Below, piece by piece: positions 4,156 to 19,235 of a stretch of 22,412 bases of DNA (the first letter of the stretch is position 1; each line of letters begins with the position of its first letter). A model generated the notes under the pieces. That model was not told the origin of the DNA and ran no database searches. It saw nothing but the letters and a program-made list of their open reading frames with translations. The stretch is taken from positions 1 to 22,412 of IMG/VR virus record IMGVR_UViG_3300027861_000211; one strand, given 5' to 3'. The position numbers and the translations under genes were made by a program. The DNA comes from a virus.

Positions 4156-4388
4156 TAGAGAGTCAAAGAGATTTCGATGCGATGATCGCAAAGCTATTCA
4201 AATCAAAGGACGGTAAGAAGGTTCTTGAGTGGCTTGAAGATCGTTACATCAAAGCAGCAGTGTGTACACCTGGCCAAGTGGAAGGTACAGGATACTATCG
4301 AGAGGGTCAAAATAGTGTGGTACGGATGTTTAAGTCCTGCATTATGAGACAAGAAAACGGAGCTTATAACGGAGACAACAATGAGTGA
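4152..4388 (+). CDS. Bbp19-like small phage protein
   Basis: 78-aa protein starting inside the portal stop (ATGATAG overlap at 4152). Its pattern, FKSKDGKKVLEWLEDRY followed by CTPG and then YYREGQNSVVRMFKSCIM, resembles the Bbp19-like family named after Bordetella phage BPP-1, which is found between portal and scaffold or capsid genes in podoviruses. The role is unknown, probably in head assembly. It ends in TGA overlapping the ATG of the scaffold gene (ATGAGTGA at 4381). The family call is from recalled pattern and position only. Confidence 0.65.
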   Translation: MIESQRDFDAMIAKLFKSKDGKKVLEWLEDRYIKAAVCTPGQVEGTGYYREGQNSVVRMFKSCIMRQENGAYNGDNNE

Positions 4389-5148
4389 TGAATCATTACT
4401 AGACGAGGCAGTAGCCGCAAGTGAAGTAGCGGATACGAACGCAACTTCAGAAGCAACAACAGAAACAACAGAACCAACGATTGATGATACTGCATGGTAT
4501 CTTTCAGAAGGTGTAGCAGGTGAGGGAGAAACACCAGAGTGGTTTAAGTCAGGTAAATATCAGACTGTAGAAGAACAGGCAAAGGCTTATTTAGGTTTAG
4601 AATCTAAACTAGGTTCATTTACTGGTGCGCCATCAGATGGATATGAGACAGTTATTCCTGAAGGACTAGAGGTAGAGATTCCATCAGATGATCCACTACT
4701 AGCTAACTTCAATGACTGGGCGCAGAAAGCAGGCTTATCTCAAGATGCTCATAGTGAGTTACTTGGTGTGTATATAGAAGGCATGATGGGTTCTCAACCT
4801 GACATGGAAGCTGAGATGAAGAAGATTGGTCCAGATGCTAACCAAAGAATCACAGATGTTGTTCAGTGGGCGAAGGGTACTTTAGATCAAGGTGAGTTTG
4901 AGACACTACAATCTTTAGCTACTACTGCTGACGGCTTCAAGTTGTTAGAAAGAATGAAGTCTTTAACAAGAGAGACACAGATTTCAGCACCTGATACAGC
5001 AAGACCTGCCAACTCAGTTACTAAAGAAGCTTTATATGATCTAATGGCGGATGAGAAGTACCAATCATCAGCAGCATTTAGAGATGAAGTTAAACAGAAG
5101 TTTGATGACTTCTTCGGTAAAGAACCTGCAAAGACAATTAGACAGTAA
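4381..5148 (+). CDS. Capsid scaffolding protein
   Basis: 255-aa acidic protein located between portal and major capsid, the standard place for the scaffold that templates prohead assembly and is removed before DNA packaging. Residues 1-45 are very acidic and Ser/Thr/Ala-rich (low complexity). Residues ~50-92 contain TPEWFKSGKYQTVEEQAKAY, LGLESKLGSF and the DGYETVIPEG phrase typical of phage scaffold/assembly proteins. The remainder is helical, and the C terminus FDDFFGKEPAKTIRQ is basic, fitting the usual coat-binding tail. No internal protease signature is seen. It is the last gene before the 164-base gap. Confidence 0.85.
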   Translation: MSDESLLDEAVAASEVADTNATSEATTETTEPTIDDTAWYLSEGVAGEGETPEWFKSGKYQTVEEQAKAYLGLESKLGSFTGAPSDGYETVIPEGLEVEIPSDDPLLANFNDWAQKAGLSQDAHSELLGVYIEGMMGSQPDMEAEMKKIGPDANQRITDVVQWAKGTLDQGEFETLQSLATTADGFKLLERMKSLTRETQISAPDTARPANSVTKEALYDLMADEKYQSSAAFRDEVKQKFDDFFGKEPAKTIRQ

Positions 5149-6786: not shown

Positions 6787-8747
6787 TGGCTAAAGCAATT
6801 GCATCTCAAGCATCATTCATTGCTGGAGAGCTTGATCCAAGACTAGCAGCAAGGATTGATACTGAGAGTTATACTAAAGGTGCTGAAACATTAACTAATG
6901 TTATTTGCCTAGGCCAAGGTGGCGTTAAGCGCAGACCTGGTATGAAGTATATTGATACAGTTACAGAGTCATCAGTACGTCTAGTTAGGTTTGAGTTCAA
7001 TGTTACGCAGACATATCTTCTAGTATTCGTTGCTTCTAAGATGTACATCTATAAAGATGGCGTATTACAGACTAATATCAATGCCTCTGGTAATGATTAC
7101 CTAGTAGTTCCATATAGCATATCTGAGATTAAAGAGATCAACTGGACTCAGAGTGCTGACACTTTGATTATCTGTCATAACGACTACGTACCTAGAAAGA
7201 TTGTGCGTGGTGCTACAGATACAGACTGGACTATTAGTTCAATGACGTTTACTTACTATCCAACCCATGACTTTAATAGGGATTATGATGGTGCTACATT
7301 TACTACACCTGCATCAGCTAAGGTTGTGGGCGATGTTATTACTATCTCATTAGATGCTGGCCATAATCCTGTAACAACAGAACATGTAGGTGGTATGTTT
7401 GAAGGAAACGCAGGTGTTGTTAGAATTACATCAGTTGACACTACATCAGGCGCACAAACACTCACAGGCACAGTATTACAAGAATTTACAAACACAAACG
7501 CTATTGATGGCGTAGATGCTTCACTAGAAGAGCCAGTATGGACAGCAACACATGGCTACCCTGGTTCAGTAACATTCCATGAATCAAGACTATGGTTATC
7601 TAATTCAACTGCTCGACCACAAACATTATGGGGTTCGGTAACAGCTGACTTCTTTAACTTTGATCGTGGCTTCGGTGATGACACAGATTCGATTGACATT
7701 ACGATGGACACAGACCAGGTTAATGCTATTTACCACCTAGTATCAGGAAGACATTTACAGATCTTCACATCAGGCGGTGAGTTCTTTATTCCAGATCGTC
7801 CTATTAAACCAGCTAATGTGGGCGTATTACGTCAGACAAGATTTGGTATGCTTAAAGCTGTACCACCTATTAACGTAGATGGTGCGACAATGTTTATTCA
7901 AAGGAACGGCAAGCAGGTTCGTGAGTATTTATATACTTATACCGAAAACTCGTATGTATCCACTGAGGTGAATTTGCTTGCCCCTCATCTTATTAATTCA
8001 CCAGTAGCTATGGCAGCACAGACTGGTGATGTTGATAACGAAGGAAACTACTTATATATCGTTAATGCAGATGGTACAGTAGCTGTGTTTATTACTAATA
8101 GAGCAGAATCAGTAACAGCTTGGACCAGGTTTACTACAGATGGCGATATCAAAGACGTTGCAGTAGTAGAAGATGTGGTGTACTTCCATGTGAAGAGAAC
8201 TATTAACGGCTCTACTGTATATACAATTGAAGCATTAGATAACAATACCTATACAGATTCAGCAGTGCATGTGGTTAATAGCCCTGCATCAGCTACAGTT
8301 ACAGGCTTGGATCATCTAAATAGCAAAGAGTGTAGAGTAAGAGCAGATGGTTCAGTGATGGATAATGCTACACCAGCATCAGGATCTATTACTTTGGCAC
8401 GTACAGCTACTAATGTAGAGGTAGGTATTAACTACGATATAGAAGTTAAGACTATGCCAGTTAATGTTACGTTCGGATCAGGCCCTATTAATGCTACTAA
8501 GCGTAGAATTTTACGAGTATCTGCTCAACTATACCAAGCAAACGGTATCAAAATAAATGGTAAAGCAGTTACAGACAAAGGTTTTGGAGTAGGCGTTTTA
8601 GGCGTTGCACCAACAGGGTTTACAGGTATGAAGACTGTGCCTATGTTAGGATATTCAAAGACATCACAAGTAACAGTAACACAATCAGATCCTGCACCTA
8701 TGACGTTGTTAGGACTCACATTAGAAATACAAGCACAAGGCGGTTAA
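6786..8747 (+). CDS. Tail tubular protein B (T7 gp12-like nozzle)
   Basis: 653-aa predicted nozzle that forms the distal tail tube and contacts the spikes. The N terminus has the diagnostic ASFIAGELDPRLAARIDTES followed by GAETLTNVICLGQGGVKRRPGMKYI (residues ~8-55). The centre includes the beta-propeller-like SRLWLSNSTARPQTLWGSV and FFNFD...DSIDI segments (about 265-305) and a GRHLQIFTSGGEFFI phrase, all usual in this family. T7 gp12 is 794 aa, so this is a shorter version. The C-terminal third is rich in Thr, Val and Gly with beta character. It follows tail tube A with TAATG coupling and precedes the internal proteins, as in T7. Confidence 0.93.
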   Translation: MAKAIASQASFIAGELDPRLAARIDTESYTKGAETLTNVICLGQGGVKRRPGMKYIDTVTESSVRLVRFEFNVTQTYLLVFVASKMYIYKDGVLQTNINASGNDYLVVPYSISEIKEINWTQSADTLIICHNDYVPRKIVRGATDTDWTISSMTFTYYPTHDFNRDYDGATFTTPASAKVVGDVITISLDAGHNPVTTEHVGGMFEGNAGVVRITSVDTTSGAQTLTGTVLQEFTNTNAIDGVDASLEEPVWTATHGYPGSVTFHESRLWLSNSTARPQTLWGSVTADFFNFDRGFGDDTDSIDITMDTDQVNAIYHLVSGRHLQIFTSGGEFFIPDRPIKPANVGVLRQTRFGMLKAVPPINVDGATMFIQRNGKQVREYLYTYTENSYVSTEVNLLAPHLINSPVAMAAQTGDVDNEGNYLYIVNADGTVAVFITNRAESVTAWTRFTTDGDIKDVAVVEDVVYFHVKRTINGSTVYTIEALDNNTYTDSAVHVVNSPASATVTGLDHLNSKECRVRADGSVMDNATPASGSITLARTATNVEVGINYDIEVKTMPVNVTFGSGPINATKRRILRVSAQLYQANGIKINGKAVTDKGFGVGVLGVAPTGFTGMKTVPMLGYSKTSQVTVTQSDPAPMTLLGLTLEIQAQGG

Positions 8748-8749
8748 TT

Positions 8750-9220
8750 ATGGCACAACTAGCATTATTATTACCAGCAGCAGGTACAGCAGCAACAGCA
8801 ACAGCAGTAGCAGCACCGACATTCTTAGGAATGACAGCAGCAACATGGGGTGGTATCTCAGCAGGTGTGGGCGCACTAGGCGCTATTCAATCAGGACAAG
8901 CACAGAAGTCAGCTTTTGAACAACAAGCTAGAGCTACTGAGCAAGCAGCAAAGGATAGAGAACTACAAAGATTACAGAATTTAAGAAGAGCGCAGGCAAG
9001 CCAAAGATCTTACTGGGCAGGTAGAGGTGTTTCAGCTACTTCAGGATCAGCTGCAACTATTGCACAACAATCTAGACTTGGTTATGAATTAGAGCGTGGT
9101 GCAGATATATCATCTACTGGTCGTGAGATTCAGAGACTACAGTCAGCAGGTAGTGCGGCTCAAACAGCTGGATGGATTAAAGCAGCAGGTAGTGCGGCTA
9201 ATTATGGAGCAAGTTTATAA
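8750..9220 (+). CDS. Internal virion protein (T7 gp14-like)
   Basis: 156-aa protein placed like T7 gp14, the smallest ejected core protein. Residues ~1-50 are hydrophobic and rich in Ala, Gly and Thr, with two possible membrane-active segments (LALLLPAAGTAATATAVAAP and GGISAGVGALGAI). Residues ~50-100 are a Gln/Arg/Ala-rich helix (QAQKSAFEQQARATEQAAKD), and SYWAGRGVSATSGSA is a pattern typical of this group. Two in-frame copies of a 16-base direct repeat encode AGSAA near the C terminus (9145-9160 and 9184-9199). Likely role: membrane insertion at the start of DNA ejection. It overlaps the next start (TAATG at 9218). Confidence 0.78.
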   Translation: MAQLALLLPAAGTAATATAVAAPTFLGMTAATWGGISAGVGALGAIQSGQAQKSAFEQQARATEQAAKDRELQRLQNLRRAQASQRSYWAGRGVSATSGSAATIAQQSRLGYELERGADISSTGREIQRLQSAGSAAQTAGWIKAAGSAANYGASL

Positions 9221-10851
9221 TGGCAGACTTCGCCCAGTATACATTCCAACAAGGTAGAAGAGTTGGACAAGTAGATATGAGTGAGGCTAATGCCTGGGAA
9301 TCTCTATCTAATACAATGACTAATTTCTCTCAGACTTTATTACAAGTTGATAAGGCACAGAAGAAGGCATACAACGCAGAAGTAAAAGAGTATGTAGAAG
9401 GCATGGAGTCAGACATCATTACTAACCTAGGTAAGGTTGCTATTGATCGTGAGAATGACTACGAGCATTACGAGCGTTTTGTTACTGCATATAAGAAAGG
9501 CACATTAGCTGGTATTGAAGATCCTAATATAAAGGATGCTGCAGGCAAGATGATTGATGATAAGGCTGTTCAGTATGGCCAGAAGGTATTCCAAAACCAC
9601 ATTAATCTTAGAAGTGCTAGACAGCTTCAATCGGCAGAGGATTCTTTAGAGATTCATGCTGTAGATACAGAACATTTGATTGATTCAACTATTAACACTT
9701 GGCATCAACAACCAGAGTTCAGAGATGGCTACATTGATAGTGTGTCTCCTATCTTCCAGACCCAAAGAGACATGTTTGCTAATAAGATCGATGGTCTATT
9801 AGAACTTGGTAAGACAGGTGATGCTGCATTTAAGCAAGAGCAAGCACTATTAGGTCGATTCTATAAGAAGGCAGCAATGGCCGAATTAACGGCTAATATG
9901 GAAGAAGGCAAAGGATGGCAAACCATTCAGGACTTTAACGCTGATCCGAGCAAATTCTTTAGCTCTAGACCACAATTACAAGCATTATTCCCAGAGGTTA
10001 AGATCTCTATGAGTGATGAAGACAAGAATGCTACGTTTAAAGACATGATGTCTATGCTTAACGGTTATCAAGGTCAGCAAGATCGTGTTCAAAATGCAAT
10101 AGCTGCGGATAAGTTAGAAGGCCAAGAGTTCTTCTATTCTAATATCCAAGGCCAGATTGCAGATGATCCAGAGAATATTGATAAGGCAAACCTCCAGTCA
10201 TGGTTAGAAGAAGACAAGATTACTACTAAGCAACATGATTCATTATTGAAGATGATTCAGACTGGTAGCTTATATAGTGAAGATGATAATGTAGTATCAG
10301 GCTTATATGATATGTTGTTTGATCCTGAAGCAGATCAGTTTGTAATATATGATCGAATCAGACAAGCTGTAGATAACAAACAGATTTCACCACCAACGCA
10401 GAAACAAATGCTTGCTACTCTAAGAGATGGTGGACTGAAAGATGTTACTAAGGATGAAGACTATCAGATGGCTATTAACGAGGTTAAGACTGAGTTTAGA
10501 ACTACTGGTCCATTAGCTGCATTCTTGCCTAACGAGTCTAAGAATATCAATAGAGCAATCAGAGAGATCTACGAACTGAAAAAGACATTACGTCCAGATC
10601 AGAACTTCCTTGATGAAGTGGATGCTATTAAGTCTAAGTACAAGCGTACGTCCGAATCTGCCAAGCCTAAAGTAAGCTGGAGAACTGGCACATGGTCAGG
10701 CACAGCAGAAGCACCAGAGCCTGAAGTATCTAAACAGACATTGGCAATTCTATTAGAGAGTAACCAGATTACAGATAAACAATACATGGAACAATTCAAT
10801 GCTATTGATGAGTACATGGAAGCCTATAATTTAAGGGAAGGTAGAAAGTAA
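9220..10851 (+). CDS. Internal virion (ejection) protein, T7 gp15-like position
   Basis: 543-aa hydrophilic, mostly helical protein with many charged residues and no membrane segments. It lies in the gp15 position between the gp14-like and the large internal proteins, and gp15 of T7 is likewise a helical protein (747 aa) that joins the periplasmic ejection tube. Features: NAWESLSNTMTNFSQTLLQV near the N terminus, NLRSARQLQSAEDSL at ~129-143 and a KTEFRTTGPLAAFLPNES segment near ~430. Around residues 488-510 a Ser/Pro/Glu-rich linker leads to a final helical KQTLAILLESNQITDKQYM region. Assigned by order and composition more than by motif. Starts with TAATG coupling and ends the same way. Confidence 0.7.
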   Translation: MADFAQYTFQQGRRVGQVDMSEANAWESLSNTMTNFSQTLLQVDKAQKKAYNAEVKEYVEGMESDIITNLGKVAIDRENDYEHYERFVTAYKKGTLAGIEDPNIKDAAGKMIDDKAVQYGQKVFQNHINLRSARQLQSAEDSLEIHAVDTEHLIDSTINTWHQQPEFRDGYIDSVSPIFQTQRDMFANKIDGLLELGKTGDAAFKQEQALLGRFYKKAAMAELTANMEEGKGWQTIQDFNADPSKFFSSRPQLQALFPEVKISMSDEDKNATFKDMMSMLNGYQGQQDRVQNAIAADKLEGQEFFYSNIQGQIADDPENIDKANLQSWLEEDKITTKQHDSLLKMIQTGSLYSEDDNVVSGLYDMLFDPEADQFVIYDRIRQAVDNKQISPPTQKQMLATLRDGGLKDVTKDEDYQMAINEVKTEFRTTGPLAAFLPNESKNINRAIREIYELKKTLRPDQNFLDEVDAIKSKYKRTSESAKPKVSWRTGTWSGTAEAPEPEVSKQTLAILLESNQITDKQYMEQFNAIDEYMEAYNLREGRK

Positions 10852-13800
10852 TGCTAGAAGCAACAATCTATTTGAATGATAAGCCAGAAGGCGACATGAC
10901 TGGTGGATTCAAGGATAGACTCGAAGATAGAGCTATTCAGACTTCACCTGCTATGAAATACTTCAATGACTACAAAGCACAGCAAGTAGTTGAAGAGGTA
11001 GATGAAGAGATTGAGCTGCCACAAGAGATTACTGGTAAGACTATACGTGAGCCAGAGGTTAATGCTTTTGACCAGATCTATGCTTTAGATGCTCAAGAGC
11101 CTGTTGTACAAGAGCCTATTCAACCTGAAGTAGATAAGCCTCTATTACAAGACGCATGGGATATGCTACCTGCTGAAGCACAAAAGATAGCGTGGCCATT
11201 TGCTGCACCGTTTGTTAAAGGCGCAGGTGAAGAGAATCCTATCTTACGTGGTATGACTGAAGGCGCATTACATGACGCACCACAAGGTATTGTTGATCTA
11301 TCTCGTGATGTTGTTAATGCACTTGGTGGCGAGTTCAAAGAAGAAGACTGGTTAAAGATTCCACAGATACTTGAATCAAACCCAGACTCTACTACAGAAG
11401 GCGTAGTAAGAGGCCTATCACAGTTCATGTCAGTATTTGGCGCAGCAGGTGGTATTGGTAAAGGCGCAACTATATTCAAACAAATGATGGCTGGTGGATT
11501 AGCAGATGCTACATTTGATCCTACTGGCGGTAACGTGGCTACTCTATTAAGAGAGCTAGACATGGATAATGCACTAACTCAGTTCTTAGACTCTAAAGTG
11601 GGCGAAGATGCTGATGCTTTAGAGAGACTACAAGCTAGAGGTAAACAAGTATTAGAAGGTGCAGGTATTGGTTTCGCTATTCCTACCTTGATCGGTGGAT
11701 TGAGATGGGCCAAGAACAATGCTAAGGACTTATTACAGGATTCAGATCCTAACCTAGTGCCTGGTGTGATGAAGAAGTTTGGTATTGATCTGCCACAGAA
11801 GGATATATTTGCTGGTGGATCAGCAGTACAACCACCTGAAGGTTTAGAGCAGGCTAAGGCTATGCTTGAAGGTGAAAGGTGGTCTCCATATCTAGAAAGT
11901 AAAGTTTGGGAAAAGACTGGATGGCATAAATTACCAGATGGAAACTACGCATTTGAGATTGACGATTCAGCGGCAGCCATTAATAACCTTGATGCTAATA
12001 ATGAGGTTATGCGATTTGAAAAGGTTGAGCTAGATAAGTATCTTGATGATCGTGCTGACGGCTTAGATGACATCATAAGAACAACTAATGTTGGCTCAGG
12101 CGAGCGCTTATACGATACTAAACTAGGTGAGGTTTTAGATCACGAACAGCTTTACAAACAATACCCTTATCTTAGAGATATGGACTTACAGGTACTTGAT
12201 GGCCTGACTAACACCCAAGGTGAGTCAATGAGTCGACTTGGTGAGGGCGCTTCATATAACTCCATCAGTCAGCAAATTCAAATATATGTTGATCCAGTGA
12301 AAGGACTTACAGACAGTAGCCTATCTTCATTGGTTCACGAGATTCAGCACGCAATTCAAGACAAAGAAAACTGGATGAACGGTGGTTCTGCTAGTGAGCA
12401 GTGGATAAGAAGATTAAAACAGTCTTTATGGAAAGATAAGGAAGTATTCGCTAAAAACAAAGAGCAATACAAAGAAGACATGAAGGCATACTCTTATGCC
12501 AATAAACTAAAGCAGGTTGATTACTGGGATGAGCTTTCAAAGAGAGATAGTGTTACAGGTATAGCTAGACACTTCTACAATACAGATCTTTGGTACACAC
12601 ACAGTGATGAGATAACCAAGAAGTTTGGACCAAGACCTAAGCCTTATAAGAAAGAAGAACACAACGAATATTTAAAGAACGTGGGCGCATTCTATAGAGA
12701 CAAGATGCAGGATGAAGTAGATGATCTGATTGATATTGCTATTGAGTCTAGAGACATTGAGCGTAATTACGACATGATTAACATGATCAAGTCTGTTGAT
12801 GGCATGAAGCAAAAAGATAAAGTTAAAGCTATTGAAAGAAAGCTAAACGAGAATGTGAAAGATGCACAGGAATATCGTAAGATTGAAAGCCTGATTCAAA
12901 AGGTTGAGAAGTCTTATTTTAGCAGCGGAACTCAATTAGAGAAAAAGAAAAGAAGACATCAGATATACGAGCAACTTCAGGGTGAGTGGCAAGCTAGAAA
13001 TGCTCAAGCCAGAAGAATGATGAGCGCTACAGAAAGAGTAGAGCAAGCACCTTATACAACGTCTGCAAAGACAAGTAGCTGGGGTGACGTACAAAGAGAA
13101 GATGTTATTACTACTAAGAGCAAGAGCTATTTATATGGCCCTGGTTATGGAAAAGTAGATAGCAATGTAGGAGAAAACCCTATAACTGTTTACCGTAGTT
13201 CAACTACAGGCGGTTATGATAAACTAGATCCTACTAAACAACGCAATGCCACATTAGACAAAGGTAACTATGTATTCCTAGATGAAGGTGATGCTAATAA
13301 ATGGCCAGGTGAGACATTAGTAAAAATCGAAGTACCAGGTGACATTATAGAAAAGTCTATTAACTGGGGTGATGGTGGCCAATCAGACTTTGTCACTAAA
13401 GCATTTAAAAATATTGAAAAGGAAGTTGACTTCCCGTTAGACCTAGAAGATGGTGGCATTGATGTTTATCCTACTCTTAAAGCAGAGCTTGGCACTGAAG
13501 GCGCTCAAAAGTTATTATTAAAGCATGGTATCAAAGGCAATAGACGCAAGGGAGAGCTTAATATCTTTGATGTAGAAGACACCAATATCATCTCTAATGA
13601 GCCAAAAAAAAGCAAAGTAAACAACGAACCAGAGGCCAAGCCTGACAAAACACTAGACGTTATGCAAGAGCTAGAAAAAGAGGCTTTGGAGTATGATGAT
13701 ATTAATGAGTTTGTTACAAAAGTGTTTAAAAGGCAGAGTACCCAAAAGCACGCTATTAGAAGTTCTATTGCCAAAGACCTTGGTGGAGAATACTCAGGAA

Positions 13801-14198
13801 ATGTTGAAGTGCCTGAAGGCATTGCTAATAGTATTGGAGACCGTGGAAGTAGAATATCTGTAGATGGAAACGATGTGTATTTTCATATAAGTGTTGAAAA
13901 AGACATAGGTGGAAACGATGTAATATTTTTGCCAAACATAGCAGTCTCAGGCAAGAACAAAGGATTGGGAACAAAGTTTATGGAAGCAATGAAAAAATTT
14001 GCCGATACAACATCTCAAGACATAGTTATTTACAAAGTAACAAACGATGATTTCTTTAGAAAATTTGCTTGGCTAGAAGAGACGGAGTTGGGTGGTACCT
14101 TTAAATATAAAGCAAAAAAAGGTAATGAATCATTAGGGTTAGGTCAGTTAGACGACATTTGGAAGAAAGCACACAGTAATGGAAACAAAGGTAAATAA
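10851..14198 (+). CDS. Large multidomain ejection protein with metallopeptidase, ART-like and GNAT-like regions
   Basis: 1115 aa. Residues ~1-300 look structural: an acidic linker, then helical, Gly/Ala-rich segments (WPFAAPFVKGAGEENPILRG; FMSVFGAAGGIGKGATIF; GAGIGFAIPTLIGGL) of the kind in ejected virion proteins. Residues ~340-730 resemble the peptidase region of phage 'large polyvalent proteins': WEKTGWHKLPDGNYAFEIDD, LGEVLDHEQLYKQYPYLRD, then zinc-binding HEIQH at 496-500 and a GEWQARNAQARR phrase at 711-722 supplying the likely third ligand. Residues ~777-915 (ITVYRSS, GNYVFLDEGDA, LLKHGIKG, LNIFDVED) recall ADP-ribosyltransferase-like modules. Residues ~1000-1085 (IFLPNIAVSGKNKGLGTKFM, VTNDDFFRKFAWLE) recall a GNAT acetyltransferase. 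It occupies the T7 gp16 place but lacks a visible transglycosylase motif. Confidence 0.8.
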   Translation: MLEATIYLNDKPEGDMTGGFKDRLEDRAIQTSPAMKYFNDYKAQQVVEEVDEEIELPQEITGKTIREPEVNAFDQIYALDAQEPVVQEPIQPEVDKPLLQDAWDMLPAEAQKIAWPFAAPFVKGAGEENPILRGMTEGALHDAPQGIVDLSRDVVNALGGEFKEEDWLKIPQILESNPDSTTEGVVRGLSQFMSVFGAAGGIGKGATIFKQMMAGGLADATFDPTGGNVATLLRELDMDNALTQFLDSKVGEDADALERLQARGKQVLEGAGIGFAIPTLIGGLRWAKNNAKDLLQDSDPNLVPGVMKKFGIDLPQKDIFAGGSAVQPPEGLEQAKAMLEGERWSPYLESKVWEKTGWHKLPDGNYAFEIDDSAAAINNLDANNEVMRFEKVELDKYLDDRADGLDDIIRTTNVGSGERLYDTKLGEVLDHEQLYKQYPYLRDMDLQVLDGLTNTQGESMSRLGEGASYNSISQQIQIYVDPVKGLTDSSLSSLVHEIQHAIQDKENWMNGGSASEQWIRRLKQSLWKDKEVFAKNKEQYKEDMKAYSYANKLKQVDYWDELSKRDSVTGIARHFYNTDLWYTHSDEITKKFGPRPKPYKKEEHNEYLKNVGAFYRDKMQDEVDDLIDIAIESRDIERNYDMINMIKSVDGMKQKDKVKAIERKLNENVKDAQEYRKIESLIQKVEKSYFSSGTQLEKKKRRHQIYEQLQGEWQARNAQARRMMSATERVEQAPYTTSAKTSSWGDVQREDVITTKSKSYLYGPGYGKVDSNVGENPITVYRSSTTGGYDKLDPTKQRNATLDKGNYVFLDEGDANKWPGETLVKIEVPGDIIEKSINWGDGGQSDFVTKAFKNIEKEVDFPLDLEDGGIDVYPTLKAELGTEGAQKLLLKHGIKGNRRKGELNIFDVEDTNIISNEPKKSKVNNEPEAKPDKTLDVMQELEKEALEYDDINEFVTKVFKRQSTQKHAIRSSIAKDLGGEYSGNVEVPEGIANSIGDRGSRISVDGNDVYFHISVEKDIGGNDVIFLPNIAVSGKNKGLGTKFMEAMKKFADTTSQDIVIYKVTNDDFFRKFAWLEETELGGTFKYKAKKGNESLGLGQLDDIWKKAHSNGNKGK

Positions 14199-14201
14199 AT
14201 A

Positions 14202-14306
14202 ATGTTAATAAAAGACTACACAGGCGCGCTTACTTTAGTTAAAATAAAAGAAAGCCGTTTGACCCTTGCAGGACACTCAAACCAATTAATCAAAAGGATT
14301 TGGTAA
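14202..14306 (+). CDS. Candidate 34-aa small ORF bridging two internal virion genes
   Basis: ATG at 14202, stop TAA 14304-14306. It lies in the same frame as the 1115-aa gene, starting one codon after that gene's TAA, and its own TAA overlaps the next ATG as TAATG, the same junction used by four other genes here. AAAGG (14187-14191) sits ten bases upstream of its ATG. The product (MLIKDYTGALTLVKIKESRL, then TLAGHSNQLIKRIW) is basic and could be a small beta-hairpin plus helix. It may be a genuine coupling peptide or the detached C-terminal tail of the upstream protein. No family is recognised. Confidence 0.4.
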   Translation: MLIKDYTGALTLVKIKESRLTLAGHSNQLIKRIW

Positions 14307-17011
14307 TGGGTACTCCTCTAGCAGAAATAGGCAAGGCATACATAAAAGCAGGCGCTAAGAGAACTGAGGATATAGTTGAGGCTGGTGCAACTGGCCAACT
14401 AAAGACTGAAGCACAAGAAGCAGCATTAAGATCGGCAACTCCAGAAGTAGAGCCTGTAGCGGTTACAGAACCTGTAGCGGTAACACCTACAGAAGTTACA
14501 CCTGTAGAAGCACCTATAGAAACTCCAACTATACAACCTATTGATGAAGTCGCACAAGCCGAAGCAATCACTGCGCCAAAAGATATTGAGATGGGTTTGC
14601 CTTCAGGCACTACTCCAGGCGCACGTAACATTAACTTTGATAATATTAAAGAGCCTGATGAGGTCTTAACTGTCATTGACAACATAGGCGCTCAGGAAGA
14701 TCAGTTTATTAAAGCTCGTGGTGGTGTTGTATCACAAGAGCAAACAGTTGTTGATGCTCAGAAAGTAGAGTTGGAAGACATCCTAGGCTTTAAGCTTGGT
14801 GATGGTGTGACACCTGCTAGAGTAACAGGTGCTAGAATTGCTTTAACTGATTCAGCATCAAGACTACAGAAGTTAGCTAAGAATGTATTAGATGGCGAAG
14901 CCACTACAGCAGAGAAACTAGCATTCAGACAGTCGGTATCAACACACGTTGCTATTCAACAATCAGTAGCAGGAATGTCAGCAGAGGCTGGACGTTCACT
15001 AAACGCATTTAGAATCCCAGTACAAGCAGGTATGCAGACTGGTGATAAGACAGCAGTATTTAGATCACAACTACAAGAGACATTTGAGCGCTCTGGTGGT
15101 GATGACACATTGTACAAATTAGCAGAGTATATTGAAGAGGCTGGCGATGACTTAGCTGAAGTAACTAAACGTGCTAAAGAGGCAAATTCAGCCACTACAG
15201 GTGACTTTATCCTTGAATACTGGATCAATGGTCTATTATCTAGTCCAGCTACTCACATGGTGAACGTAACATCTAATGCTATGGTGGCCACATGGTCTAT
15301 CCCAGAGCGTATGTTAGCATCTGGCTTCTCTAAGATTCTAAGATCAGAGAAAGGTGTAGAGATCCAAGAGGCAGTAGGCCAAGTATTTGGATTGATGCAA
15401 GGTACTCGTGATGGTCTAAGAATGTTTTGGAAGACTCTAAAGACTGGTGAGCCTTCAGATCCTGCAATGAAATTAGAGGCGCGTAAGTATAGAGCTATCA
15501 CAGCTCAGAACGTGGGTATCAATACTGAGGGTTATTTATCTAAGGGTGTTGATCTACTAGGAAACATGATTAGAATGCCAGGTAGATTCCTTGGTGCTGA
15601 AGATGAGTTCTTCAAGTCTATTGGCTACCGAATGGAATTGAATGCTCTAGCTTACAGAAAGGCAACAAGCGAAGGCTTAGAAGGCGAAGACCTAGGTAAG
15701 CGCATTGTAGAGATCGTTAATAATCCTACAGAAGAGATTCACTTGGCAGCATCAGATGTTGCACGAGTACAGACATTTACAAACCCATTGGGCGAGTCAG
15801 GACAGAAGGTACAGCAATTAGCTAACTCTCATCCTGCTCTTAAACTGATCCTTCCATTTGTTAGAACACCAGTAAACATTGTTAAGTTTGTTGGCGTACG
15901 TTCACCATTAGCACCTTTTGCTAAGTCATTCAGAGCAGATATTGCAGCAGGTGGCGCAAGACGTGATATGGCATTATCGAAGATGAGTCTAGGCTCATTA
16001 GTTATGGGTGTAGGCGTTACTATGTCTTCAGATGGCACTATTACTGGTGGCGGACCAAAGAATAAAGCACAAAGAGATGCTCTAAGAAGACAAGGATGGC
16101 AGCCTTATTCAATGAAAGTGGGCGATAAGTATTACTCATTCAATAGAACAGATCCAATAGGAATGTTCCTTGGCCTATCAGCAGACTTAACTGAAGTCAT
16201 GAAATATGCAGAAGATGATCAAGATTCATTAGACCTTGCTACAGCAGCAACAATCTCAATGGCTAAGAACTTAACTTCTAGAACATATCTAAGAGGTTTA
16301 TCAGATGTGATGAACGTATTATCAGATCCAGATCGTTATGCTGAAAGATTCTTCCAAAGACAAGCTGCATCATTTACACCAATGACATCATTGGTTGCTA
16401 ACATTGAGAGAGAGTTTGATCCTACTATGAGAGCTACTTATTCATTGATGGATGAGATTAAAGCTAGAACACCTGGACTATCAGATTCACTACCACCTAG
16501 ACGTAACTTATATGGCGAGCCTATTGTATTACAAGGTGGCTTAGGTATAGACTTTATATCACCTATCTACTCATCTACTAGGAAGTTTGATTTTGTAGAT
16601 AACGAGATCGTAGAGAATGAAGTAAACGTATCAATGCCTAGAAGAAGTATTGGCACTGGTAATTTCTCTATTGAGCTTAATGCAGATGAATACGATAGAT
16701 ATGTTGTTTTGGCAGGTAAAGAGCTGAAAATGCCTTATACCAATATGAAGACTGGTAAGACTAAAGATCTGAACTTGCATAAATACTTACAAGGCATGAT
16801 GGCTGGTGATATGTATCAAGATGCTAGTGGAGGACCAGATGGCGGTAGAGCTATGTTGATCACTACTATCGTTAATGCTTTCAGAGATGGTGCTAGAGCA
16901 ACACTACTAGATGAGAACGAAGCATTGGCTGCTGAATGGCAATACCAAAAACAATTAAAAGTGGAAGCAAAGACAGGCAAGCCACTTGAAGAATTACTAC
17001 AGGGATATTAA
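14306..17011 (+). CDS. Large internal virion protein (ejection protein, gp16-like position)
   Basis: 901 aa. A TTG at 14300 is in frame, but I choose ATG 14306: AAAGG at 14293-14297 is eight bases from it and only two from the TTG, and the ATG forms TAATG with the small ORF. Residues ~45-90 are a Pro/Val/Thr/Glu-rich linker with the tandem EPVAVT. The central region has DFILEYWINGLLSSPATHMV and NVTSN (~301-324) and LPFVRTPVNIVKFVGVRSPL (~515-540), patterns I recall from very large phage virion proteins. Hydrophobic stretches (SLGSLVMGVGVTM) could insert into membranes. No lysozyme or protease motif is seen. Likely role: part of the trans-envelope DNA conduit with the preceding proteins. Confidence 0.72.
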   Translation: MGTPLAEIGKAYIKAGAKRTEDIVEAGATGQLKTEAQEAALRSATPEVEPVAVTEPVAVTPTEVTPVEAPIETPTIQPIDEVAQAEAITAPKDIEMGLPSGTTPGARNINFDNIKEPDEVLTVIDNIGAQEDQFIKARGGVVSQEQTVVDAQKVELEDILGFKLGDGVTPARVTGARIALTDSASRLQKLAKNVLDGEATTAEKLAFRQSVSTHVAIQQSVAGMSAEAGRSLNAFRIPVQAGMQTGDKTAVFRSQLQETFERSGGDDTLYKLAEYIEEAGDDLAEVTKRAKEANSATTGDFILEYWINGLLSSPATHMVNVTSNAMVATWSIPERMLASGFSKILRSEKGVEIQEAVGQVFGLMQGTRDGLRMFWKTLKTGEPSDPAMKLEARKYRAITAQNVGINTEGYLSKGVDLLGNMIRMPGRFLGAEDEFFKSIGYRMELNALAYRKATSEGLEGEDLGKRIVEIVNNPTEEIHLAASDVARVQTFTNPLGESGQKVQQLANSHPALKLILPFVRTPVNIVKFVGVRSPLAPFAKSFRADIAAGGARRDMALSKMSLGSLVMGVGVTMSSDGTITGGGPKNKAQRDALRRQGWQPYSMKVGDKYYSFNRTDPIGMFLGLSADLTEVMKYAEDDQDSLDLATAATISMAKNLTSRTYLRGLSDVMNVLSDPDRYAERFFQRQAASFTPMTSLVANIEREFDPTMRATYSLMDEIKARTPGLSDSLPPRRNLYGEPIVLQGGLGIDFISPIYSSTRKFDFVDNEIVENEVNVSMPRRSIGTGNFSIELNADEYDRYVVLAGKELKMPYTNMKTGKTKDLNLHKYLQGMMAGDMYQDASGGPDGGRAMLITTIVNAFRDGARATLLDENEALAAEWQYQKQLKVEAKTGKPLEELLQGY

Positions 17012-17012
17012 T

Positions 17013-19235
17013 ATGGCACAAATAAAAGTAGGAGATTTAACTCCTCGTAACCAATACACAGCGACTTCAGGCCAGACTGCATTCACGTATGCCTTTCCTA
17101 TCTTCGCAGACGCAGATCTTAAAGTCTACGTTGGAACGACACTTAAAACATTAACAACAGATTACACAGTATCAGGCGCAGGAGATGACAACGGTGGTAC
17201 TGTTACTCTAGTAACTGGAGCTACTACAGGTGATATTATCACAATCTTACGTGATATGCCTGTAGCCAGAACTTCAGATTACCAAGTAAACGGTGACTTA
17301 CTAGCTGATACATTAAACGATGATCTAGATAAGCTAGTCATGATGGCACAGCAGAATGAGTCTGAGCTTAGTAGAAAGCTAGGCCTTCAGTTGGATGACG
17401 AAGATGCTACGATGACATTGCCACTTAAAGACACTAGAGCTACCAAGCTTATGGGCTTTGATAGTAACGGTGATGTTGCTGTATCAGGCTCAACTATGAC
17501 TGATATTGATGCTTCAGTGGCCGCAGCGTTTGCAGGTGGTGTATTAGCAACGTCATACCAGTTTACAGGCGATGGTGCTACAGTGGACTTCACTATAACA
17601 GGTGGTGTTACTGCTATTCCTAACGCTCAAGCTTTGATTATCACTATTGATGGTGTAACTCAACATACAGACACATACACGACTTCAGGTGCTGTAGTTA
17701 CATTCAGCACTGCACCACCACTTAATGCAGATATTCAAGTACGATACAATGCTTATCTTGGTACAGCTACAGACGCAGCGAGTGCTACCTATAATCAAGG
17801 TGGCACTGGTGCTTCTAGTAGAACAGTAGAGAACAAGCTACAAGAGTCAGTATCAGTATTAGACTTTGGTGCTGTGGGCGATGGTGTTACAGATGATACG
17901 GTAGCTATTCAGGCGTTCTTCACTCATTTAGAAAATACAGGTGGAGTAGGTACGGGTGGTGGTGGAAGTTATATATTCTCTACACCTTTGGTCATTAAGC
18001 ATCATAATCTACAGGACATTAGTTTTACATATAAGGGTAGCACAGCTAGTGCAACTGCTATAACAGTTGAAGAAGGTGGTGATAACTACGGTGTATGTAA
18101 GTGGACTAATGTAGGTCTTTCTATAGATGCTACAAGTACCAATTACGTCTGTGGGTTGCGTTTAAGAAAAGCGTTGAGAAGTACATTCATCAATATCAGT
18201 GTGAGCGGTGCAACAGCAACTAATGCGGTTGGTTTAATTTTAGAGGGTGCTACATCTAATAGATTCTTTAACTGTACTTTCTCTGGTAACTATATTGGTA
18301 TGGAGTTTAAATACTTCCTAAACCCGTCAAATGCTGTACACGTACCAGCGAATGAGAATAAATTCTTTGCTTGTACATATACAAATGAGGTTAATCGTGG
18401 TGTACAGATGTTGGGAGACCCTACAGTTACCAATCAATCACAAGGTAATGGAAATGGCTTTATAGCTTGTTGGTTTGAAACTAACGGCGCTGAAGGTGCA
18501 TACATAGAGAATGGCAATAACTGGTTATTCTCTAACTGTAGATGGGAAAATTGTACAACTAATAGTATTGCTTTGATTAGTTCAGGTGTTAATCTTGGGC
18601 AGGGTGTATCAATCGATGGTATGAATAACTTCGCTTCAGTCATTGGTACAGGTGCATATCAGGTTAAGATTGGCTCTACTTACCAGGGAGTGTCAATCAC
18701 CAACAACTACTTTGATACTTCATTTAATAAAGTTGATGATGCAAGTAATAATGCACAGTTAAGAGGGAATCATAACCTAACTGATGTTTATCCTGATATT
18801 GTAGTGCCATCAACTACGGATGGTACTGTAGGTGCAACTGGTTGGAATCTTCATCGTTTAGATGGTGTAGGGGCTGCCACAGATCTATATGATTTAGGAT
18901 TAAAAACAGGATTCAGATACACTCAGTTTAATCTACTGATAACGTCACAGAAAACAGGTGGCGCTGAAACCTGGAGTCGTACTTTTGTAGGTATTGTTAA
19001 AACAGGAGTTAATACTGAGAATTATGCAAATGCTATAGTTCTAACAGCTCAAGCAGATGGTGTTGTGGATGCCAGTGGATCTACTCAAGGAGACTTTACA
19101 CTTACAACAACAACTCTCAACAATAGAGTGCAGATACAAATTGCCAAAGTAGGCGCTAGCACTATTGATGTTGTCTGCAAGCTTGAGTGGTTGAGTGTAG
19201 GCGCAGATGCAATTAGTGGCTTGATAATCAATTAG
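17013..19235 (+). CDS. Tailspike: T7-fibre N-domain plus pectate-lyase-like beta-helix
   Basis: 740 aa from ATG 17013. An upstream in-frame ATG at 16986 would overlap the previous gene; 17013 has AGGG at 17001-17004 and starts right after the stop. Residues ~12-150 match the T7 gp17 tail-attachment domain (NQYTATSGQTAFTYAFPIFA, TILRDMPVARTSDYQ, then NDDLDKLVMMAQQNESELSR). Residues ~180-250 form a second beta module (QFTGDGATVDFTI, then IDGVTQHTDTYTTSG). From ~280, SVLDFGAVGDGVTDDTVAIQ is the classic Pectate_lyase_3 opening, followed by right-handed beta-helix repeats with NRFFNCTF, NKFFACTY, WLFSNCRW rungs up to ~590. The final ~130 residues look like a trimeric receptor or lectin-like tip. 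Probably binds or degrades surface polysaccharide. Ends in TAG. Confidence 0.9.
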   Translation: MAQIKVGDLTPRNQYTATSGQTAFTYAFPIFADADLKVYVGTTLKTLTTDYTVSGAGDDNGGTVTLVTGATTGDIITILRDMPVARTSDYQVNGDLLADTLNDDLDKLVMMAQQNESELSRKLGLQLDDEDATMTLPLKDTRATKLMGFDSNGDVAVSGSTMTDIDASVAAAFAGGVLATSYQFTGDGATVDFTITGGVTAIPNAQALIITIDGVTQHTDTYTTSGAVVTFSTAPPLNADIQVRYNAYLGTATDAASATYNQGGTGASSRTVENKLQESVSVLDFGAVGDGVTDDTVAIQAFFTHLENTGGVGTGGGGSYIFSTPLVIKHHNLQDISFTYKGSTASATAITVEEGGDNYGVCKWTNVGLSIDATSTNYVCGLRLRKALRSTFINISVSGATATNAVGLILEGATSNRFFNCTFSGNYIGMEFKYFLNPSNAVHVPANENKFFACTYTNEVNRGVQMLGDPTVTNQSQGNGNGFIACWFETNGAEGAYIENGNNWLFSNCRWENCTTNSIALISSGVNLGQGVSIDGMNNFASVIGTGAYQVKIGSTYQGVSITNNYFDTSFNKVDDASNNAQLRGNHNLTDVYPDIVVPSTTDGTVGATGWNLHRLDGVGAATDLYDLGLKTGFRYTQFNLLITSQKTGGAETWSRTFVGIVKTGVNTENYANAIVLTAQADGVVDASGSTQGDFTLTTTTLNNRVQIQIAKVGASTIDVVCKLEWLSVGADAISGLIIN

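Follow-up and report, generated by a model that had tools for sequence, protein, structure and literature searches.

On balance, we read the gene at positions 10851–14198 of this short-tailed phage as encoding a polyvalent ejection protein, in which a constant carrier is followed by exchangeable effector modules and an LPD23-zincin is one such module, predicted to act as a protease on host proteins. The DNA analysed (the window, 22,412 bases) makes up the whole of the IMG/VR virus record IMGVR_UViG_3300027861_000211. Judged by its sequence, the gene product is a polyvalent protein in the sense of Iyer et al. 2017 (PMC5512222), with unrelated domains joined in one polypeptide and encoded beside virion genes. 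The features on which the argument draws are the following:

8750–9220, + strand: gp14-like internal virion protein (phrog_418 internal virion protein, E 4.6e-5)
9220–10851, + strand: gp15-position protein of 543 aa with no SLT domain (position and conservation; no Pfam family above cut-off)
10851–14198, + strand: polyvalent ejection-slot protein of 1115 aa (open frame; LPD23 over cut-off; between the gp15-like and gp16-C-like genes)
10851–11807, + strand: conserved carrier, residues 1–319, ending at the joint FGIDLPQKD (identity to relatives; abrupt cargo change after the joint)
11808–11981, + strand: LPD23, residues 320–377 (Pfam PF18838, E 1e-8, above cut-off)
12336–12350, + strand: HEIQH, residues 496–500, on a helix; predicted two zinc ligands and catalytic Glu497 (conservation and AlphaFold model)
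12396–12920, + strand: long helical insert separating HExxH from the third ligand, roughly residues 516–690 (AlphaFold model, all helical, high confidence)
12981–12998, + strand: GEWQAR, residues 711–716; Glu712 predicted third zinc ligand (conserved GExEAR; on a helix in the model)
13161–13640, + strand: ART-like domain (tentative), residues 771–930 (homologous modules in L003, L004, L011, L100 and L204–L208)
13668–14175, + strand: GNAT-like acetyltransferase cassette, residues 940–1108 (DNA identity with L008–L010, L012 and L194; Foldseek)
14306–17011, + strand: gp16-C-like internal virion protein, ATG at 14306 (phrog_6651 internal virion protein, E 1.2e-48)

The gene set of the window is that of short-tailed phage late genes, with TerL, portal, scaffold, major capsid protein (MCP) and tail tubular proteins A and B, and further encodes the gp14-like, gp15-position, polyvalent and gp16-C-like proteins as well as tail spikes. 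The closest cultured match of tail tubular protein B was found in Methylophilales phage MEP301 (37% identical), and by tblastn the gp16-C-like gene resembles the 'internal virion protein D' of cultured Roseobacter, Pelagibacter and Desulfovibrio podoviruses. Related records are given L-numbers here, the close relatives all being metagenomic contigs, and the order gp15-like, polyvalent and gp16-C-like gene is kept in L002, L003, L004, L018 and L100. A 34-codon ORF, MLIKDYTGALTLVKIKESRLTLAGHSNQLIKRIW, lies at 14202–14306 between the polyvalent gene and gp16-C, overlapping the start of the latter, and is missing from L004, in which the cargo gene runs straight to gp16-C. Residues 371–426 of the gp15-like protein (gene 9220–10851) resemble the C-terminal part of the scaffold (window 4381–5148) in relatives, at 32–34% identity and E down to 3e-5, and the common stretch is perhaps a shared docking segment. 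The idea that the gp15-like protein is AF_015 with its lysozyme deleted found no support, similarity between the two being undetectable. The tail spike at 16986–19235 gave weak pectate-lyase-like and beta-helix matches under the Pfam cut-offs, and a PADLOC search gave no hits.

The sequence-only reading had recognised a zinc-peptidase region of the kind found in polyvalent proteins from HEIQH at residues 496–500, two upstream phrases (TGW..PDGNYAFEI among them) and a downstream GEWQARN. This is borne out: HEIQH is the sole HExxH in the 1115 aa, both upstream phrases are present as quoted, GEWQAR begins at residue 711, and each of the four flanking phrases is kept throughout the family. Any HExxH arose in 1.3% of 2000 shuffles of the polyvalent ORF, and HExQHxxQ in none. 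An IMG/VR scan found at least 408 relatives, the best 80 of which were retained. Among 74 distinct modules, picked by HExQHxxQ and not by the downstream motif, G[EQ]xx[AGS]R follows in 70 (against 1 of 74 shuffles), a figure that may truly lie nearer 67 than 70, given a loose regular expression with two or three doubtful cases; two of the four failures are cut off by a contig end. Across 62 diverse modules H496, E497, Q499, H500, Q503, G511, Y706, G711, E712 and R716 are invariant, in part by construction for the H/E/Q/H/Q and G/E/R positions because the rows were picked for HExQHxxQ and GE..R, and T356, G357, E369, I370, H431, Y438 and P439 are nearly so. In L130, which was seeded by tail tubular protein B and recognised by LPD23 with no selection for HExxH, HEIQH follows LPD23 too. 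The LPD23-zincin stretch is shared, at about 30% identity, with the Pseudomonas phages AF, 8P and F116-like, and in a six-module alignment that includes Pseudomonas phages HExQHxxQ, Y, GE and R are already invariant.

The structure prediction called for by the earlier reading agrees with this assignment. An AlphaFold model of residues 318–770, built on 62 homologues, is confident (pLDDT 89.4, pTM 0.82) and runs from three strands through the HEIQH helix and the long helical insert to the Glu712 helix, which is zincin topology; the core seen in the model, HExxH and a later helix bearing Glu, is that described for polyvalent zincins (PMC5512222). In relatives the insert between HExxH and the third ligand varies from 30 to 250 aa. 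LPD23 matches 54 of the 62 homologous modules and forms one confident model unit with the zincin, and may therefore be the N-terminal part of an LPD23-zincin peptidase. Profile matches at E <= 0.01 among the 62 modules were to DUF6782 'putative metallopeptidase' (27), Peptidase_M78 (5), SprT-like (3) and Peptidase_M90 (1); Peptidase_M78 is over cut-off in L068, and six M78 hits all cover the HExxH helix by coordinates. The window's own zincin module matched none of DUF6782, M78 or SprT-like, so that the relation stands at the level of the family. MPTase-PolyVal (PF18818) had no match in the window and a single one, below cut-off (E 7e-4), among relatives. Foldseek of the zincin model against the PDB returned helical-bundle hits and no zincin at E <= 0.001, an uninformative outcome because the long helical insert dominates the comparison, and against a viral model library it returned other large polyvalent/LPD proteins with E down to about 1e-10. 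By conservation and modelled fold, the region running from LPD23 through HExQHxxQ to the helix with GExEAR is taken to be a real zincin-type module. Our search of open-licence papers found no experimental study of any LPD23 zincin.

The carrier that precedes this module is far more constant than what follows it. It is 100% identical to L004 in DNA and to L005 in protein (L005 stops one residue short of the residue-319 joint), and 87% identical in L100, 57% in L018 and 46–47% in L011 and L102. The window and L004 are 100% identical in DNA from about 10400 to 11806 (1.4 kb, to residue 319), share nothing until 14303 and are 100% identical again from 14303, their other genes being 79–100% identical. 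The cargo of L004 is unrelated to that of the window and consists of an ART-like domain, a PBECR5 nuclease and a GH24 lysozyme. The ART cassette of L004 recurs at this joint in L011, whose carrier is only 47% identical; L100 combines ART-like modules with GH24; and L018, a more distant podovirus (MCP 53%), has the carrier and the zincin with nothing else recognised. The zincin joint is common to the window, L002, L003 and L006. A remote zincin is found in L048, whose MCP is 96% identical, and in a quick tree with long branches the zincins of phages with 96% identical MCP sit far apart. An IMG/VR search with the joint sequence yielded no further cargo types. Read from sequence, cargo exchange at the residue-319 joint is sharp, and the independent exchanges are few. 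Since near-identical phages carry different enzymes at the same joint, the peptidase looks exchangeable.

Exchange is visible also at the far end of the gene. The GNAT cassette (508 bp, 13668–14175) has 95–98% DNA identity with L008, L009, L010, L012 and L194, its sharp edges coinciding in every complete copy, and the TerL of these phages is only 40% identical to that of the window; by these identities the cassette is recently shared between unrelated phages. In this second phage group the polyvalent gene directly follows TerL, and two of its members, L012 and L008, have flanks that are 98.5% and 99.9% identical in DNA around different cargo, LPD23-zincin in one and ART in the other. Positions 1–150 of the window are 98% identical to L008 23–172, upstream of the second-group TerL, which is another recent exchange. 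The domains in the polyvalent proteins of L008, L012, L197, L204, L206 and L208 are separated by the short recurring linkers DGVLGQ, GGLLAQ and KGLLD, which are possible recombination seeds or cleavage sites.

The two domains behind the zincin are assigned with different firmness. Residues 771–930 form a conserved module that is tentatively ART-like: the ART-PolyVal (PF18760) profile reached E 0.058 on it, in one of five members, hhalign against ART-PolyVal members gave no support, and a PDB profile search with the module returned ribosomal proteins only. For residues 940–1108, in which no Pfam GNAT match was obtained, the best Foldseek hits of a low-confidence model are acetyltransferases (best 4.7e-4), mostly GNATs among the matches listed, and the stretch GKNKGLGT is a putative acetyl-CoA loop; in the model the region thus has a GNAT fold with its acetyl-CoA loop. 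The anti-CRISPR AcrVA5 was among the Foldseek hits (target TM-score 0.56–0.61, with the low-confidence model), and it was the only PDB sequence-profile hit of the region (6iuf), at a non-significant E of 0.78. GNAT beside ART is typical in polyvalent proteins (PMC5512222). L003, an 82% relative, carries in its gene at 7171–11151 an additional segment within the carrier and, after the ART-like module and before the shared GNAT, an additional GNAT.

The presence of several domains behind a peptidase raises the question of whether the zincin serves the polypeptide that carries it. As an auto-processing protease it would cleave the polyvalent protein into separately working domains, whether ahead of packaging, inside the capsid or once in the host cell, as has been proposed for DdrB of phage P1 and for polyvalent zincins generally (PMC5512222), and the ART-like and GNAT domains that it precedes could be released in this way. 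However, L004 and L100 have several cargo domains and no zincin, and in L018 the zincin is the only recognised cargo. The zincin is therefore neither needed for multi-domain cargo nor tied to it, which argues against a dedicated cargo-releasing protease and favours a host-directed one; we consider auto-processing rather unlikely.

A second alternative concerns the cell wall. The sequence-only reading had placed the peptidase in the genomic position of T7 gp16 and suggested that it stands in for the transglycosylase of that protein. The position was confirmed, since the gene lies in the ejection-gene cluster directly upstream of the gp16-C-like gene, and the substitution was not. Complete genes in this slot contain a zincin, GH24 lysozyme, ART-PolyVal, Zeta toxin, DUF7178 or nothing recognisable; in the set seeded by tail genes, the same slot holds a Zeta toxin in the related podoviruses L142 (6593–9919) and L152 (8605–11955), ART-PolyVal in L133, DUF7178 in L149 and nothing recognised in others. 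Only 3 of the 32 related records match GH24, and in two of these (L100 and L119) the match lies in the slot gene; an SLT domain was found neither in the polyvalent ORF nor in any of the 32. Given these variable contents and the scarcity of GH24 and SLT, wall opening is not a conserved duty of the gene. A peptidoglycan endopeptidase that replaces the T7 transglycosylase or the GH24 of sister phages would fit the place upstream of gp16-C, and the window proteins scanned have no other wall-lytic Pfam domain. It would fit also the way in which the two enzymes avoid each other: L004, L100 and L119 lack the zincin and have GH24 towards the C-terminal end of this gene (the L119 gene is cut by the contig end), and in complete carrier-positive genes zincin (window, L002, L003 and L018) and GH24 (L004 and L100) never occur together, four cases against two. 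Against this, the complete slot genes of L133, L142 and L152 have neither, phage AF encodes, next to its LPD23-zincin protein, an SLT 'structural lysozyme' in a gene of its own, and none of the nearest families (M78, SprT and DUF6782) is annotated as a wall hydrolase. In 20 large LPD23-zincin proteins the partners are ART, helicase, methylase, InPase, ParB-like and MuF domains, with a Pfam wall-lytic domain in none, and zincin partners in other phages are intracellular enzymes. T7 itself needs its transglycosylase only under certain conditions (PMC8954989). A wall-cutting role is accordingly improbable.

Less probable still is a role in assembly, in which the zincin would process scaffold, head or ejection proteins. 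In favour are the place of its gene among those for virion proteins and the part that proteases of other classes play in phage assembly. Yet the zincin is missing in sister phages with an about 96% identical major capsid gene (L004 and L100), so that assembly can do without it. The slimmest chance is that L004 differs from the window in its cargo through an assembly chimera, as two metagenomic contigs with 100% identity on both sides might suggest. Against it, neither joint breaks the reading frame of L004, its ART cassette is independently found at this joint in L011 after a 47% identical carrier, its GH24 end recurs in L100, which is another contig, and the zincin joint recurs in three other records.

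In the preferred reading, that of a polyvalent ejection protein with a host-directed protease among its modules, we infer that the protein is packaged and ejected, that it binds zinc and cleaves proteins, and that its substrate belongs to the host; a host defence protein was among the targets that the sequence-only reading listed. The carrier (residues 1–319) would be packaged with the gp14-, gp15- and gp16-C-like ejection proteins; in the zincin, zinc would be bound through His496, His500 and Glu712, Glu497 being predicted to activate water; and a host protein would be cleaved early after ejection, with the GNAT acetyltransferase and a probable ART acting alongside. A broader reading, held tentatively and at a little under an even chance, would make the gene before gp16-C, in this group of short-tailed phages, the place where effector cassettes of different kinds (protease, ART, nuclease, acetyltransferase, lysozyme and Zeta toxin) dock interchangeably. 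The cassettes would be short pieces of DNA that pass between unrelated phages with their edges fixed, much as polymorphic toxins do, and the LPD23-zincin would be one of them, a protease that targets the host and stands alone.

The protein resembles the polyvalent proteins with zincin-like MPTase domains (PMC5512222) in uniting several enzymatic domains of unrelated kinds in a single large polypeptide, in its place among virion genes and in its HExxH zincin with a later helix bearing Glu. It differs in being placed in the podovirus gp15/gp16-C slot behind a dedicated carrier, and in that cargo exchange between near-identical phages is here directly visible; LPD23 has no mention in the main text of that description. 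The likeness to T7 gp16 (PMC8954989) lies in the next gene (14306–17011), which matches the C-terminal regions of internal virion protein D, and in the polyvalent gene standing where gp16-N would precede gp16-C, but in the window this is a separate gene with no SLT, and zincin, ART-like and GNAT domains take the place of the transglycosylase. The LPD22/LPD23 proteins of the Pseudomonas phages AF and F116-like also have LPD23 followed by HExQHAIQ and GEVEARN, but they are 2200–3800 aa long with other carriers and partners, and AF has its SLT lysozyme next door. In polymorphic toxin systems (PMC3482391) a constant N-terminal part likewise receives C-terminal enzymatic cassettes exchanged by recombination, the carrier in the window being a predicted phage ejection protein and not a secreted toxin system.

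The 2017 description left open whether polyvalent zincins release domains or attack the host (PMC5512222). The role of the zincin can be tested directly within one phage background by means of the natural near-identical pairs reported here, one member of which has the module and the other lacks it, at a single joint of the same gene. That unrelated phages share an almost identical GNAT cassette shows that such weapons have been traded recently, and as discrete pieces.
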